64,000 nt of DNA from Oricola sp. GTDB lineage: Bacteria; Pseudomonadota; Alphaproteobacteria; Rhizobiales; Rhizobiaceae. This document shows, piece after piece, positions 3,070 through 54,245 of this stretch. Location of the stretch: NCBI RefSeq assembly GCF_022763245.1, contig NZ_JALEGV010000012.1, forward strand, positions 1-64,000. Direction: 5' to 3'. The position numbers and the translations under genes are program-made. The notes under the pieces are model-generated. The model had not been told where the DNA came from. It saw only the letters and a program-made list of their open reading frames with translations, and did not search any database. How positions within the stretch are numbered: the stretch's first letter is position 1; each line of letters begins with the position of its first letter.

Positions 3070-3801
3070 CTAGCCGTAGCGCGTGACGAAGTTTCGCAGG
3101 ATCCTCGCCCCCGCCTCCGGGTTGCCGCGCCGCGCCGCCTCGGTCAGGTGCTCGGCGTCGGCGGGATCGAAATAGCCCTTGTCGCGATAGATGCGGATGC
3201 GCAGCGCGAACACCTCGCCATCGGCTTCGGGGTGGAACTGCGTCGCATAGACATTGTCCCGGTAGCGGATCATCTGGAACGGACAGGCGTCGCCCGCGAC
3301 CAGCTGCACGCAGCCCTCCGGCAGCGCCTGGACCGCTTCCTTGTGGCCGACGAAAGCGTCGAACGGCCCCTCGATCCCGGTCAGCAGCGGATCGGCCCGC
3401 CCCTCCTCGGTCGCTTCCGCCCGAACCACGGACACAGGCTCGCCAAAGCGCTCCTTGGAAACCGCGCCGCCCAGGTGATGCGCCAGAATGCCGATGCCGT
3501 AGCAGCAGCCGAGAAACGGAATGTCGCGCTCGGTGATCGCCGGCATCAGGCTCATCACCTCGTCCTCGATGTGCTTTTCCATCGGGCTCTTGTCTTCCGG
3601 CGCGTCGGAGACGCAGCCCGGCCCGCCGCCGACGATCACGCCGGCATAGTCACCCGGATCGAGCGGCGGCAGTTCCTCGCGCTCCAGCCGGATGCGGCGA
3701 ACGCGGTCCTCGGTCAGCCCGCCCTTTTGCAGGATGGCGTGAAACTCGTCGTCGGAGGCTTCCGCCTCGGGGCGCAATTGCAGGATCAGAAAGGGCTTCA
3801 T
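3070..3801 (-). CDS. Class I glutamine amidotransferase (GATase1) protein
   Basis: A stand-alone class I glutamine amidotransferase of 243 residues. The nucleophile elbow LGCCYGIG gives Cys100 as the likely catalytic residue (GxCxG), and QFHPE at about 189-192 supplies the His and Glu of the triad. GVIVGGGPGCVSD near residue 55 fits the oxyanion-strand region. Such free-standing proteins resemble the amidotransferase part of GMP synthase and are usually annotated as glutamine amidotransferase without a known acceptor. There is no synthetase domain here and no obvious partner next to it, so the substrate is open. About 220 bp separate it from the divergent sulfurtransferase gene. Confidence 0.85.
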   Translation of the reverse strand: MKPFLILQLRPEAEASDDEFHAILQKGGLTEDRVRRIRLEREELPPLDPGDYAGVIVGGGPGCVSDAPEDKSPMEKHIEDEVMSLMPAITERDIPFLGCCYGIGILAHHLGGAVSKERFGEPVSVVRAEATEEGRADPLLTGIEGPFDAFVGHKEAVQALPEGCVQLVAGDACPFQMIRYRDNVYATQFHPEADGEVFALRIRIYRDKGYFDPADAEHLTEAARRGNPEAGARILRNFVTRYG

Positions 3802-3980
3802 GGCAGTCGTCCGGACAGGAAACGCCGCTTAATGGGCCAATCGCCGGAACCCGTCAAATGCGCGGCCGCGAAACGACGTTCCACGCATCGGCGATCTCGC
3901 GAAAAGCTTTTTCCCGCCGCGCCCGAAAAAAGGGCCTGCCGACTTATCCACCGGCGCTTCCAGCGCCCATATTATGCTGA

Positions 3981-3998
3981 GCCCGGCTTTCGCCGGGC
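3981..3998. other. Perfect 7-bp hairpin in the sulfurtransferase leader
   Basis: GCCCGGC-TTTC-GCCGGGC ends 24 bp before the ATG at 4023. No T-run follows directly, so it is not a clear terminator; it could affect translation or mRNA stability. The rest of the 3802-4022 gap must hold the divergent promoters, but I cannot place them. Confidence 0.4.
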
Positions 3999-4022
3999 GT
4001 GTCGGTTTTGGAAAGGCGGCCC

Positions 4023-4463
4023 ATGGCCCGGATAGCCCAGCTCGAAAAGAACGTCTTCGTGGCCTCGCAGCTCACCGAGGACGATTTCGCGGAAATCGCC
4101 GCGCGCGGCATCCGCTCGGTCGTCAACAACCGGCCGGACGGCGAAGCCGACGACCAGTTGCCGAGCGCAGAGGCCGAAGCCATCGCCCGCCGCCACGGCC
4201 TCGACTATCGCTTCCTGCCCGTCGCCAGCCATGACGTGACCGACGACGAACCGGTCGACGCCCAGACCGAGGCGCTGCGCGCCCTGCCCGGGCCGGTCCT
4301 GTTCTACTGCCGCTCCGGCAACCGCTCCACCATCCTGTGGACCCAGGCGGCCGCCGCGCGGCTGGGCGCGGACACCGTTCTCGACCGTGCCGCCGGCGCC
4401 GGCTTCGATCTCGAGGAACTGCGCGAATTCGTCGAGGACCGCGCCGAGGCCATGGCCGCCTGA
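4023..4463 (+). CDS. DUF442 / TIGR01244 family sulfurtransferase-like protein
   Basis: This 146-residue product matches the DUF442 group (the beta-lactamase-hydrolase-like / Blh phosphatase-fold domain). It opens with the typical NVFVASQLTEDDFAEIA and GIRSVVNNRPDGE, then has a FYCRSGNRS loop with Cys96 and Arg101. The six-residue loop C-X4-R matches sulfurtransferases rather than C-X5-R phosphatases, so persulfide chemistry is more likely than dephosphorylation. In related bacteria members are tied to sulfide detoxification, but no sulfide:quinone reductase or persulfide dioxygenase is adjacent. ATG at 4023 fits an AAAGG-like site; a GTG at 3999 would add eight residues. Confidence 0.8.
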   Translation: MARIAQLEKNVFVASQLTEDDFAEIAARGIRSVVNNRPDGEADDQLPSAEAEAIARRHGLDYRFLPVASHDVTDDEPVDAQTEALRALPGPVLFYCRSGNRSTILWTQAAAARLGADTVLDRAAGAGFDLEELREFVEDRAEAMAA

Positions 4464-4483
4464 AAAGCCTGAACCTGTCAATC

Positions 4484-4610
4484 TTTTACAAATTTACTGG
4501 CCGCGACATCGCATCGCAACATTTAGACACGAATTGAAAGCCAGATTTCCGGGATTTCCGTGACATTCCCCTCTCTTCGCTGCATTGCGGCGTGACAGAT
4601 TTTTACAAAT
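4484..4610 (+). promoter_or_regulatory. Repeated TTTTACAAAT boxes before isocitrate lyase
   Basis: The decamer TTTTACAAAT is present exactly at 4484-4493 and 4601-4610, 117 bp apart (about 11 helical turns), framing the aceA upstream region. Glyoxylate-shunt genes are commonly under acetate- or acyl-CoA-sensing regulators, so these could be operator sites. The second box is 18 bp before the ATG, where a repressor would block the start. Confidence 0.35.
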
Positions 4611-4628
4611 CGACGAGAGGAAGCCCAC

Positions 4629-6224
4629 ATGTCATACACGCAGGATATTCAGGAAGCCCGCGATCTGATCACCGGCCGCGGCAACAGCTGGAACGCCATC
4701 GACGCCGAGGCGGTCGCCCGCATGCGCGTCCAGAACAAGTTCAAGACCGGCCTCGACATCGCCCGCTACACGGCCAAGATCATGCGCCGCGACATGGCGG
4801 CCTATGACGCCGATCCGGCCAACTACACCCAGTCGCTCGGCTGCTGGCACGGCTTCATCGGCCAGCAGAAGATGATCTCCATCAAGAAGCATTTCGGCAC
4901 GACCAAGGGCCGCTACCTCTATCTCTCCGGCTGGATGGTCGCCGCGCTGCGCTCCGAATTCGGCCCGCTGCCGGACCAGTCCATGCACGAGAAGACCTCG
5001 GTTCCGGCGCTGATCGGCGAGCTCTACACCTTCCTGCGCCAGGCCGATTCGCGTGAACTGAACATCCTGTTCCGCGACCTCGACGCCGCCCGCGACGCCG
5101 GCGACGTGAACAAGGCCGCCGAGATCCAGCACAGGATCGACAATCACGAGACCCACATCGTCCCGATCATCGCGGACATCGATGCCGGCTTCGGCAATGC
5201 CGAGGCGACCTACCTGCTCGCCAAGAAGATGATCGAGGCCGGCGCCTGCGCGCTGCAGATCGAAAACCAGGTCTCAGACGAAAAGCAGTGCGGCCACCAG
5301 GACGGCAAGGTCACGGTCCCGCACGAGGAATTCCTCGCCAAGGTCCGCGCCTGCCGCTACGCCTTCCTGGAACTCGGCGTCGATGACGGCGTCATCGTCA
5401 CCCGGACGGATTCGCTCGGCGCGGGCCTGACCAAGCAGATCGCCTTTTCGCGTGAGCCGGGCGACCTCGGCGACCAGTACAACGCCTTCCTCGATTGCGA
5501 GGAAATCACCGCCGACGATCTCGCCCCGTCGGACGTCGTCATCAAGCGCGACGGCAAGCTGATGCGCCCGAAGCGCCTGCCCTCCAACCTGTTCCAGTTC
5601 CGCTCGGGAACCGGCGAGGACCGCTGCGTCCTCGATAGCATCACCTCGCTGCAGAACGGCGCGGACCTGATCTGGATCGAGACCGAGAAGCCGCATATCG
5701 GCCAGATCGGCGGCATGATGAACCGCATCCGCGAGGTCGTCCCGAACGCCAAGCTGGTCTACAACAACTCGCCGTCCTTCAACTGGACGCTGAACTTCCG
5801 CCAGCAGGTCTATGATGCCTGGGAGGCCGAGGGTCGCGACGTTTCCGCCTATGATCGCGGCACGCTGATGAGCGCGGCATATGACGGGTCGGAACTGGCG
5901 GCCGAGGCCGACGAGCGCATCCGCACCTTCCAGGCGGACGCGGCCCGCGAGGCCGGCATCTTCCACCACCTGATCACGCTGCCGACCTATCACACGGCGG
6001 CGCTGTCCACGGACAATCTGGCGAAGGAGTATTTCGGCGACCAGGGCATGCTCGGCTACGTCAAGAACGTCCAGCGCCAGGAAATCCGCCAGGGCATCGC
6101 CTGCGTCAAGCACCAGAACATGGCCGGCTCCGACATCGGCGACGACCACAAGGAATGGTTCGCCGGCGAAGCGGCCCTCAAGGCCGGCGGCAAGGACAAC
6201 ACGATGAACCAGTTCGCCGCCTGA
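4629..6224 (+). CDS. aceA: Isocitrate lyase
   Basis: First enzyme of the glyoxylate shunt; cleaves isocitrate to succinate and glyoxylate, allowing growth on acetate, fatty acids or C2 units. The 531-residue product is of the long Pseudomonas-like type. It carries the active-site loop DEKQCGHQDGK with Cys221 (KQCGH in place of the KKCGH seen in shorter enzymes), the metal-binding IADIDAGFGNAEA near 181, and the conserved YNNSPSFNWT and HHLITLPTYHTAALSTDNLA blocks. A strong GAGAGGAAG site lies upstream of ATG 4629. It is monocistronic: a terminator follows at 6278. Malate synthase, its usual partner, is not in the window. Confidence 0.96.
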   Translation: MSYTQDIQEARDLITGRGNSWNAIDAEAVARMRVQNKFKTGLDIARYTAKIMRRDMAAYDADPANYTQSLGCWHGFIGQQKMISIKKHFGTTKGRYLYLSGWMVAALRSEFGPLPDQSMHEKTSVPALIGELYTFLRQADSRELNILFRDLDAARDAGDVNKAAEIQHRIDNHETHIVPIIADIDAGFGNAEATYLLAKKMIEAGACALQIENQVSDEKQCGHQDGKVTVPHEEFLAKVRACRYAFLELGVDDGVIVTRTDSLGAGLTKQIAFSREPGDLGDQYNAFLDCEEITADDLAPSDVVIKRDGKLMRPKRLPSNLFQFRSGTGEDRCVLDSITSLQNGADLIWIETEKPHIGQIGGMMNRIREVVPNAKLVYNNSPSFNWTLNFRQQVYDAWEAEGRDVSAYDRGTLMSAAYDGSELAAEADERIRTFQADAAREAGIFHHLITLPTYHTAALSTDNLAKEYFGDQGMLGYVKNVQRQEIRQGIACVKHQNMAGSDIGDDHKEWFAGEAALKAGGKDNTMNQFAA

Positions 6225-51120: not shown

Positions 51121-51339
51121 CTATTTGAATCGATAGGTGATGCGGCCCTTCGTGAGGTCGTAGGGCGTCATCTCGACAAGCACCTTGTCGCCGGCGAGAA
51201 CCCGGATACGGTTCTTGCGCATCTTGCCGGCGGTGTGGGCAATGATTTCGTGATCGTTTTCCAGCTTCACCCGGAAGGTGGCGTTCGGCAACAATTCCGT
51301 CACCACGCCGGGAAATTCAAGAACTTCTTCTTTCGCCAT
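51121..51339 (-). CDS. infA: Translation initiation factor IF-1
   Basis: 72 residues, the normal size. OB-fold protein at the ribosomal A site. [20 protein letters not shown] and [20 protein letters not shown] with [13 protein letters not shown] are near-invariant. It starts 122 bp after the caspase gene, behind a terminator, so it likely has its own promoter. Confidence 0.98.
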
Positions 51340-51361
51340 TCGGTCTCTTTTCTTCCAACGC

Positions 51362-51388
51362 AAAAAGGCTGCCTTTCTGGCGCAGCCT
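51362..51388 (-). terminator. Terminator after the caspase gene
   Basis: On the minus strand AGGCTGC-GCCAGAAAG-GCAGCCT is followed by TTTT; a 7-bp perfect stem. It separates the caspase gene from infA. Confidence 0.75.
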
Positions 51389-51460
51389 CGTTTTCCGCCA
51401 TCTCATATAGTGTCAGCCTTGCAGCGACAACACCCTTGTGTCGAATTGGTTCCGGCAAAC

Positions 51461-53671
51461 TCAGGGGTCGCCGCGGTCCATCCTCACGAAGACGACATCG
51501 CCGCCCTCGTGGCCGGATTTCTCGATGGCGCGATATTGCGGCTCCTGCGCGGCCCGGCCGATGACCATCGGCACGATGAAGCCGTCGAACAGCTCGCGCG
51601 CCGAAAAGGCGTCGTCGACATTCTCCTCGAGCCCCGTCAGCAGGGCGCGCGCGAACACCGAATGCCCGCCCCCGCCGGTGTCGGCGACCGGCTCGTTGCC
51701 GCCGGAGGTGATCAGGATTCGCGACCGGCGGTCGGACAGCCGTTGAAGAGCCAGCAGCCGGTCCTCCGCGATCACCTTGGCCGGCCCCTCGCCGCCCCGC
51801 AGAAGCTGGCCGGAATAGCAGCTGTCGGAAATGACGATGACATTGCCCGCCTGGATGCGCGTCAACGCCTTGGAGAGATTGTCGGGATCGTAATAGGAGG
51901 GCGGATAGCCGGCCCGCGCGTCGGCAGGCACCCAGAAGGCGGCGCCCGTCACCTGCTCGTAGATCCCGTGCCCGGCGTAATAGATCAGCACGCTGTCGGC
52001 GTCGCCCGCGAACTGGCTGACCTGGAACAGGACGTCGGCGATCTGCGGCCCGCTCGCGTCCTTCAGCACCAGGGGAACGGTGCGCCCGTCGAAGGACGCC
52101 TCGGTCACGTAGCCGTATTTGTCCGTCAGGATCGCGGCCAGCGCGTCGATGTCGGCGAACGGCGTCTCCAGCCGCGCCATGCCCGACTGTTCCGAATAGT
52201 TCTGGTTGGCGATCAGCACGGCGTAGCGCGTTCCCGTCCCGGTCAGTGCTTCGCGGTCACCCTCATAGACGATCTCCGTCACCAGCTCGTGGAACACGAC
52301 GTCCCGGGTCAGGGCCGAGATGGTGATCTCGTTTCGGCCCGGCTTCAGCTTCACGGGAAGCGAGAAACGACCGTCGGGCGTCAATTGCGCCTGCCGCCCG
52401 TCGACCGTCACGATCATGGTCTGCGCCGGCCATTCGACCAGGCCGCGAATCTCGATCTCCGGCGTCTTCTTCGGCGCCGCGGACCGCGTCGGCGCCGGGT
52501 TGGTCAGCTTGATCGCCTTGCGCGACGGCGTGGCCGGCGGCCGCTGCTCGGCGATGATGGCGACCGACGGATCGGTCGTCTCGAAGATGTAGCGGCGGTT
52601 GAGATCGCGCCCCTCGGCGCCGTCATGCGCCGCAAGCGACACCGTCTCCACCCGCCGCGCCAGATCGGGCACCGTCGCCTTGCCGTTGGACAGAAGCGCC
52701 ACCGCGATCTTGTAGGAGAAGATGCCGTAGGTCTCGCCGTCGGGATCGCCGGTCGGCAGCTTCATCTCGAAGGCCGGGTCGGTGCGCCCCGCCGCGTAGA
52801 ATGTGGTCAGCCCGCCATGCCCGGCCGAAAGCCTCGTCGCCTCGGGAAATTCGATCGCCTCGTCGGCCGTTTCCGGCGCGAACGGGATCTGCGTTTCCGT
52901 CCACAGCCGCGCCGGGTCGATCTGCGCCTGGCGCGCCTGTAGGTCGGTGTCCGCCACGAGGCGCGAATCCAGGATGACGACCACATTGGCCATGCGGTTG
53001 CGAAACTGCGTGACCAGTTCAGACAGTGCCGGCGCGGAAACCAGTTGCGCCTGCCCGGCCGAAACCTGGTTCAGCGCCAGAAAGGGCCCCGCTTCCACCA
53101 GCCGCGCAAGATCCGAGGCATTCGGGTTGCGGTCGGAATATTCGGCAAGCGGCACGCCCCTTTCGCCGCGATCGAAGGGCGCCTGCCCCGACAGCCCGAA
53201 GGCCAGTTCGCCGGCCATGAAGGTCGTGCCGGAGAAATGGAGGACGACGGTGTCGTCGCAGCCGACTTTGCGCAACAGGTCGAGCGCCGCGGCGGCCAGT
53301 CCCGCCCTGCTCGCACGGTCCCCGGCAAGCGTCACGATGTTCTCGTCGGACGCGCCGCCCGCGACGAGCGCGGACCGTAGAAGTGCGGCGTCGTTCGCCG
53401 GCCCCTCCAGAAAATACTGGTCGTACTGGCCGAACCGGTCGGCGGCGATGATCAGCGCATGCGTCCGGCGCGGCGCCGCTGCGTCGCAGCGTGGCGACGC
53501 GAGGTCCGGCGCGTCGAACAGAAAGCCCTCGAGGCCCGGAAAGGCCGCGAGGAACCGCTCGCGATACTCGGCCGGCGCCATCATCGACGGTTCCGAACCC
53601 ACCGGTTTGACACCCGCACATGCCGGTGCCGCGCACAACAGCATCGCAGCGCACATCAATGCCCTGATCAT
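51461..53671 (-). CDS. Secreted tandem caspase-like protein, second domain active
   Basis: 736 residues. Signal peptide at 1-20 (MIRALMCAAMLLCAAPACAG). Domain 1 (about 68-320) has the caspase fold (THALIIAADRFGQ, VGCDDTVVLHFSGTTF, VVVILDSRLVADTD), but the His position is Thr149 and the Cys position is Arg237, so it is dead. A Lys/Pro linker and an Ig-like segment (403-460, ALTPDGRFSLP-like QAQLTPDGRFSLPVKLKPGR) follow. Domain 2 (480-736) has RYAVLIANQNYSEQSGMARL, IYYAGHGI with His568, and VISDSCYSG with Cys618, an intact dyad of Clan CD. Expected to cleave after a basic or acidic residue; the target is unknown. It sits between UPF0262 and infA, in a housekeeping block. GAGGGAA lies upstream of ATG 53671. 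Confidence 0.85.
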   Translation of the reverse strand: MIRALMCAAMLLCAAPACAGVKPVGSEPSMMAPAEYRERFLAAFPGLEGFLFDAPDLASPRCDAAAPRRTHALIIAADRFGQYDQYFLEGPANDAALLRSALVAGGASDENIVTLAGDRASRAGLAAAALDLLRKVGCDDTVVLHFSGTTFMAGELAFGLSGQAPFDRGERGVPLAEYSDRNPNASDLARLVEAGPFLALNQVSAGQAQLVSAPALSELVTQFRNRMANVVVILDSRLVADTDLQARQAQIDPARLWTETQIPFAPETADEAIEFPEATRLSAGHGGLTTFYAAGRTDPAFEMKLPTGDPDGETYGIFSYKIAVALLSNGKATVPDLARRVETVSLAAHDGAEGRDLNRRYIFETTDPSVAIIAEQRPPATPSRKAIKLTNPAPTRSAAPKKTPEIEIRGLVEWPAQTMIVTVDGRQAQLTPDGRFSLPVKLKPGRNEITISALTRDVVFHELVTEIVYEGDREALTGTGTRYAVLIANQNYSEQSGMARLETPFADIDALAAILTDKYGYVTEASFDGRTVPLVLKDASGPQIADVLFQVSQFAGDADSVLIYYAGHGIYEQVTGAAFWVPADARAGYPPSYYDPDNLSKALTRIQAGNVIVISDSCYSGQLLRGGEGPAKVIAEDRLLALQRLSDRRSRILITSGGNEPVADTGGGGHSVFARALLTGLEENVDDAFSARELFDGFIVPMVIGRAAQEPQYRAIEKSGHEGGDVVFVRMDRGDP

Positions 53672-53753
53672 GTTCCGAATTCCCTCGCCGCCCGTGGTCC
53701 GCGCGATAGTTCCGGCACTTTCCGACGGTTTCAAGGCACGGTTTGCCGAGGCG

Positions 53754-54245
53754 TCAGCCGCGCCAGTGCAGCACGCAGACCAGCGTGAACAGCCGCCGCG
53801 CCGTGTCGAAGTCCATCTCGACCTTGCCGGCCAGCCGATCCATCAGCGTTTGCGATCCCTCGTTGTGGACGCCGCGCCGCGCCATGTCGATCGTCTCGAT
53901 CTGGCCGGGCGTCGACATCTTGATCGCCTCGTAATAGCTGTCGCAGATCATGTAGTAGTCCTTGATGATTCGCCGGAACGGCCCGAGGGCCAGGATGTGC
54001 GTGGCGACCTTTTCGCCGTCTTCGCGGGTGACGTCGAAGACCAGCCGCCCCTCGACGATGGAAAGCGACAGCTTGTAGGGCCCGCTGGCCTCGTCGCCGA
54101 CGACCCGGAACCTGTTTTCTTCCAGCAGGTCGAAGATCGCGACGGCGCGCTCATGCTCGACATCCGGCGTGGACCGGCCGATCGACTCGTCGAGGACGAC
54201 ATCGATCAGTCGTGCATCGGGTCCGAGTGTTTCGCCGTCCGCCAT
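53754..54245 (-). CDS. UPF0262 family protein
   Basis: 163 residues. [34 protein letters not shown], and a C-terminal WRG after LFTLVCVLH are the family pattern. Conserved in alphaproteobacteria next to hisD; function unknown. ATG 54245 is 17 bp after hisD. The frame runs open further upstream inside hisD, but those residues are not family-like. Confidence 0.9.

Follow-up and report, generated by a model that had tools for sequence, protein, structure and literature searches.

The window analysed here is a 64,000-nt stretch of contig NZ_JALEGV010000012.1 (positions 1-64,000, forward strand) of Oricola sp. (GCF_022763245.1). It contains a gene for a caspase-domain protein, which is flanked by UPF0262 and infA and has hisD, a DUF2948 gene and maf nearby (Table 1). 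An earlier note had described the product as two caspase domains in one chain, one dead (D1) and one intact (D2), joined by an Ig-like segment. The residues are as claimed there, with Thr149 and Arg237 replacing the dyad of D1 and the His568/Cys618 dyad present in the sequence of D2, and structure prediction of the halves, which that note had proposed, gave a caspase-type fold for both. The joining segment was also borne out, as a PF09136 Ig-like domain lies ahead of D2, which itself has a Pfam C14 match. The interpretation offered in that note found partial support. Homologues of the protein have hydrophobic N-termini of a similar kind, and the signal-like N-terminus suggests that this dead-plus-live protein is probably exported. 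Neither promoters nor terminators were found in a scan of positions 51300-53900.

Table 1. Features of the caspase gene and its product (positions within the window)
Feature	Position	Strand	Remark
Whole gene, 736 aa	51461..53671	-	In order: signal-like N-terminus, D1 (dead caspase), Ig-like linker, D2 (intact caspase)
Signal-peptide-like N-terminal segment, residues 1-19	53615..53671	-	A-C-A at 17-19; assigned by eye
D1, residues ~69-380	52532..53467	-	Metacaspase-like fold without catalytic dyad (T149, R237)
Cys62	53486..53488	-	Kept in 13/13; putative disulfide partner of Cys138
Cys138	53258..53260	-	Kept in 13/13; non-Cys in 15/15 intact relatives
Thr149	53225..53227	-	Catalytic-His position of D1
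Arg237	52961..52963	-	Catalytic-Cys position of D1
Ig-like linker, residues ~387-469	52265..52513	-	PF09136 match at 406-457
D2, residues ~475-732	51476..52249	-	Intact paracaspase/orthocaspase-like domain
His568	51968..51970	-	Catalytic-position His of D2
Cys618	51818..51820	-	Catalytic-position Cys of D2

A search for the same dead-plus-active order, also proposed in the earlier note, showed this order to be kept in all 13 genomes with both halves. These carriers are the window genome, 11 of the 57 loci from GTDB contigs (L059-L069) and genome G187. They span two orders, Hyphomicrobiales and Rhodobacterales, and the 11 loci include Tabrizicola, Mesorhizobium qingshengii, Primorskyibacter, Oceanicola, Aquibium and several MAGs. 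The genome searches used strict E-value limits and the best two, five or seven matches per genome, and absences in them are soft. Within the order, 2 of 397 genomes matched at E<=1e-60 (best two matches per genome), namely the window's own and G187, in which D1 is visible in the full frame. Within the family, 34 of 151 genomes gave some match (best seven matches per genome) and five the whole protein, these being the window's own, L061, L066, L067 and L069. Within the class, E<=1e-25 was reached by 25 of 385 genomes (best two matches per genome). The window genome matched along the entire protein, 23 others solely from profile position 339 onward (the end of D1, the linker and D2) and G907 in D1 alone. 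No free-standing dead D1 was found when the 385 class genomes were searched with a D1 profile (best five matches per genome). The four genomes matching at E<=1e-12 in this search were the window genome, through the dead-plus-live gene and its homologue on contig C20 (motifs LHFSGHG and DSCHSG), and G907, G546 and G813, whose matches have the GHG and DxC motifs. Searches for mobile carriage gave no support for it: six plasmid records matched, none over 80% of the query and each with its best place starting at residue 406 at least, and no relative was present among 22 candidate viral stretches. The first domain table was made without 11 of the 57 loci (L078, L082, L085, L087, L095, L096, L101, L104, L107, L111 and L113), a later scan took in all loci from L059 on, and one D2 alignment left out L090 and L114.

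The D2 half has the caspase fold with the His-Cys dyad that defines C14 membership, and His and Cys occupy its site in 13/13 carriers. Its best structural match is the paracaspase MALT1, which is also matched by sequence profile (E 4.5e-4 with the 13 D2s and 2.1e-11 with a broader profile). MALT1 has an Ig-like domain ahead of its caspase domain, a further likeness to D2. Unlike in MALT1, the Ig-like domain here is of the PF09136 type, no Pfam death domain is present and a dead metacaspase-like domain stands in front. By alignment, D507 and D616 are the S1 aspartates of D2; both are unchanged in 13/13 and correspond to Asp in MALT1 and metacaspase-4, and D2 is probably a peptidase cutting after Arg or Lys. 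In the available text of PMC6426788, a paracaspase is defined by an Ig domain of PF00047, PF13895 or PF13927 before p20, and the window protein has PF09136 and none of the three listed. The model for the EACC1-associated caspase, NF047832, scored 92.9 bits, under its curated cut-off of 140; the neighbouring genes, which bear on the adjacent-EACC1 criterion of that family, are those given above.

The predicted fold of D1 is metacaspase-like, with fold and sequence-profile matches to Arabidopsis MCA4 and MCA9 and to yeast Yca1. In contrast to these metacaspases, D1 of the window protein is without both catalytic residues, and the Cys is missing in 13/13 carriers. The catalytic-Cys column reads R, T, S, V, T, P, P, N, L, S, L, S and A, i.e. 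eight different residues in 13 genomes, while His is missing from its column in 10/13 and retained in 3/13 (L061, L067 and G187). What is fixed in D1 is thus the missing nucleophile. A changed nucleophile, Ser, is found in 3/13 and offers no general explanation, the other ten residues being R, T, V, T, P, P, N, L, L and A. In terms of C14 membership, D1 has the caspase fold and lacks the His-Cys dyad. It also conforms to the pseudo-orthocaspase description in the available text of PMC6426788, a p20 domain with a substituted dyad. D1 alone is under the Pfam cut-off, and its 12.9 bits are a Pfam C14 score, the limit of 35.2 in the available text of PMC6426788 belonging to that paper's own p20 model.

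Mean pairwise identity over the 13 genomes is 30.7% for D1, 38.5% for the Ig-like domain and 55.5% for D2. A single open frame spans D1 and D2 in 13/13, and 11 positions in the D1 alignment are invariant, including C138, R224, N225, D235, G286 and Y292. In four pairs, beginning with the closest, dN/dS was 0.24, 0.32, 0.51 and 0.56 for D1 and 0.17, 0.16, 0.32 and 0.33 for D2, rough values given that dS in D1 was 0.82 for the closest pair and exceeded 1.1 for the remaining three (0.82 to 1.8). The ratio was higher in D1 than in D2 in all four pairs and stayed below 0.6 in D1 throughout; the value of 0.24 in the closest pair shows that D1 is constrained. The lower conservation of D1 than of D2 might fit a recognition module. 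Cys62 and Cys138, both present in 13/13, make up with Cys618 all the cysteines of the window protein beyond the signal segment, and Cys62 sits ahead of the region aligned to intact relatives. Their conservation, in a protein that is probably exported, suggests a Cys62-Cys138 disulfide in D1. By alignment, the S1 aspartates of D1 are D235 (13/13) and D94 (11/13), and E302 is kept in 12/13. The DGxDE motif is found in 0/13 D1 domains vs 15/15 intact relatives. Residues 160-183 of D1 form a region of variable length and are of low confidence in the whole-chain model.

An intact metacaspase-like family is the nearest match of the D1 profile (E 3.9e-29), and D2 is a distant one (E 1.1e-8). Members of this family have frames of mostly 740-880 aa, and one of them, with the motifs LHFSGHG and DSCHSG, is an 841-aa frame in the window genome (C20:214973). 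The two E-values make a fusion likelier than an internal duplication and disfavour D1 as an internal duplicate of D2. In a tree, the D1 domains form one clade (99/100) and the D2 domains another (100/100), with D1 placed between two parts of the intact family at a support of 82/89 under a midpoint root only. Four pairs group in both halves of the tree (L059-L062, L061-L065, L063-L064 and L067-L069), two of them weakly in the D1 half (88/67 and 80/26), which fits inheritance of D1 and D2 as one chain. G187 is long-branched in both halves; such joins in a tree may be false, and its position is unsure.

D2-type relatives occur also in Deltaproteobacteria, Nitrospinota, Acidobacteria and other groups. 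Five hand-picked D2-type proteins have varied fronts by Pfam: a DctP solute-binding domain (L070), three Ig-like repeats (L072), LpoB/CsgG (L076), ankyrin repeats (L075) and Sel1 with SH3 (L097). PF09136 precedes a caspase domain without D1 in L070, L072 and L076, and is just under the cut-off in L075. Among 79 frames in the fetched loci with D2 above 100 bits, 15 have a separate D1 (13 distinct proteins, window and G187 being counted twice) and 64 have none, some of the latter ending upstream at contig ends or short flanks. These varied front modules and the 64 D2 frames lacking D1 are the main ground for regarding D1 as one more front-end module. The L070 protein (3690-5981, Desulfobacterales), in which a DctP-type domain, an Ig-like domain and a D2-type caspase follow one another, is a possible ligand-sensing protease.

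The reading preferred here, to which we give an even chance, is that of a probably exported protease in which D1 is kept as a non-catalytic module directing or gating D2. On the anatomy of the protein, the dead-plus-live chain would be exported, D2 would cleave after basic residues and D1 would direct or gate D2. D1 would then be a metacaspase-type domain whose nucleophile was lost, most simply once in a common ancestor, and which has since been kept folded, perhaps disulfide-pinned, and non-catalytic; it may recognise a partner or substrate, or relay a signal. The computed basis consists of the predicted folds of both halves, the intact D2 with a dead D1 in 13 genomes, the constraint on D1 and its being nearer to another family than to D2; we infer export, Arg/Lys specificity, the disulfide and a role in recognition or control. 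A bolder proposal, possible although doubtful, is that an old fusion made a disulfide-locked dead metacaspase the obligate control partner of a live paracaspase-like half outside the cytoplasm. If true, bacteria would have their own counterpart of cFLIP/caspase-8, built as one chain.

Caspases, like MALT1, become active when two caspase domains pair. The covalently attached dead D1 might thus pair with D2 and set its active site, like cFLIP-L and caspase-8 in one chain; this is unlikely, although the dead and live domains share one fold and, with the Ig-like linker, are kept together in 13 genomes. Both the fold and the nearest family of D1 are metacaspase-like, the fold of D2 comes closest to MALT1, and the 64 other D2 frames without D1 indicate that D2-type domains in general need none. 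Metacaspases, moreover, are mostly described as monomers, which counts against such pairing. In the whole-chain model (pTM 0.56) the placement of D1 relative to D2, and with it any interface, is unreliable. The precedent of cFLIP-L as a dimerisation partner of caspase-8 speaks for the pairing (available text of PMC6426788). It is distinctly unlikely that D1 is an auto-inhibitory prodomain, an idea of the earlier note, covering or distorting the D2 active site until the linker is cleaved. The N-terminal place of D1 and a stretch with basic residues between it and the Ig-like domain would suit a prodomain, but the Ig-like domain is itself conserved and also precedes caspases without D1, and is thus no simple spacer.

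Substrate capture by the dead half was likewise suggested in that note. The three acidic residues kept in D1 are what a retained basic-residue pocket holding substrates for D2 would show, and pocket aspartates are likewise retained in pseudo-orthocaspases (available text of PMC6426788). However, the absence of DGxDE from every D1, in a region of variable length and low model confidence, vs its presence in every intact relative makes such a trap quite improbable. Decay of D1 into a functionless remnant is very improbable: its identity is far below that of D2, its dN/dS is the higher in 4/4 pairs and Pfam barely detects it, but it shares an open frame with D2 in every carrier, has dN/dS below 1 in 4/4 pairs and has kept its invariant positions and predicted fold.

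cFLIP-L and caspase-8 are separate chains, unlike the single chain of the window protein, whose model gives no reliable interface. The shared trait is that a dead caspase domain goes together with a live one (available text of PMC6426788). The same paper (Klemencic et al., 2019), in its available text, reports 862 bacterial pseudo-orthocaspases with their function left open, places 561 of 582 alphaproteobacterial ones in Rhizobiales and 14 in Rhodobacterales, and notes that a few proteins have several p20 domains. D1 resembles these in having a p20-type domain with substituted His/Cys and kept S1 aspartates. The partners described in that text differ, being C-terminal extensions, TPR, trypsin-like and DUF4384 domains, with no fusion of a dead to a live caspase. 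Pseudo-orthocaspases are also tied there to phototrophic groups, whereas a Photo_RC search of six of the 13 carrier genomes found reaction-centre genes in one (G049) and none in the window genome. This suggests that pseudo-caspases of this class need not accompany phototrophy. For bacterial conflict systems, the available text of PMC7159879 calls about 70% of effector-position caspase domains inactive and describes another component in which a live FtsH copy follows a dead N-terminal one; that dead-plus-live chain is an ATPase, and no caspase chain of this kind is mentioned in it. A dead-plus-live caspase chain in bacteria was not found in the literature searched, a search with most subscription papers outside it. 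In these 13 genomes one chain joins a dead caspase, its Cys-less state fixed, to a live caspase with an invariant site, and a broken and an intact domain paired in this way lend themselves naturally to testing the role of dead proteases.

Two congeneric genomes have UPF0262 and infA side by side, with about 130 bp between them. The window matches both congeners on either side of the caspase gene, save about 80 bp before and 25-55 bp after it, and positions 51340-53756 are thus a single-gene presence/absence between UPF0262 and infA. The matching flanks point to gain of a single gene here or its loss there, with no larger island. A conserved gene neighbourhood was mostly rejected, since none of eight window flanking genes searched for recurs in the sequence fetched around the gene in the other 12 carriers, mostly some 5 kb on each side. 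In three of 13, an intact metacaspase-like frame on the minus strand lies head-to-head with the dead-plus-live gene (L060 2578-5010, L067 2271-4682 and L069 2322-7199). These three share local gene order, with a polA-type gene on the other side, and the head-to-head arrangement may therefore be one event. Other shared neighbours named by Pfam are general metabolic, respiratory and transport genes and a LysR regulator, several frames being unmatched.

Caspase matches number 15 in the window genome. Contig C20 accounts for ten, and on it four caspase-domain matches follow one another on one strand (G000 contig C20, 303448-310095; L058). In G907 (contig C155, L143, 3591-7999), an intact metacaspase-like frame is convergent with an adjoining second caspase-like frame, the front of which resembles beta-propeller repeats by eye.
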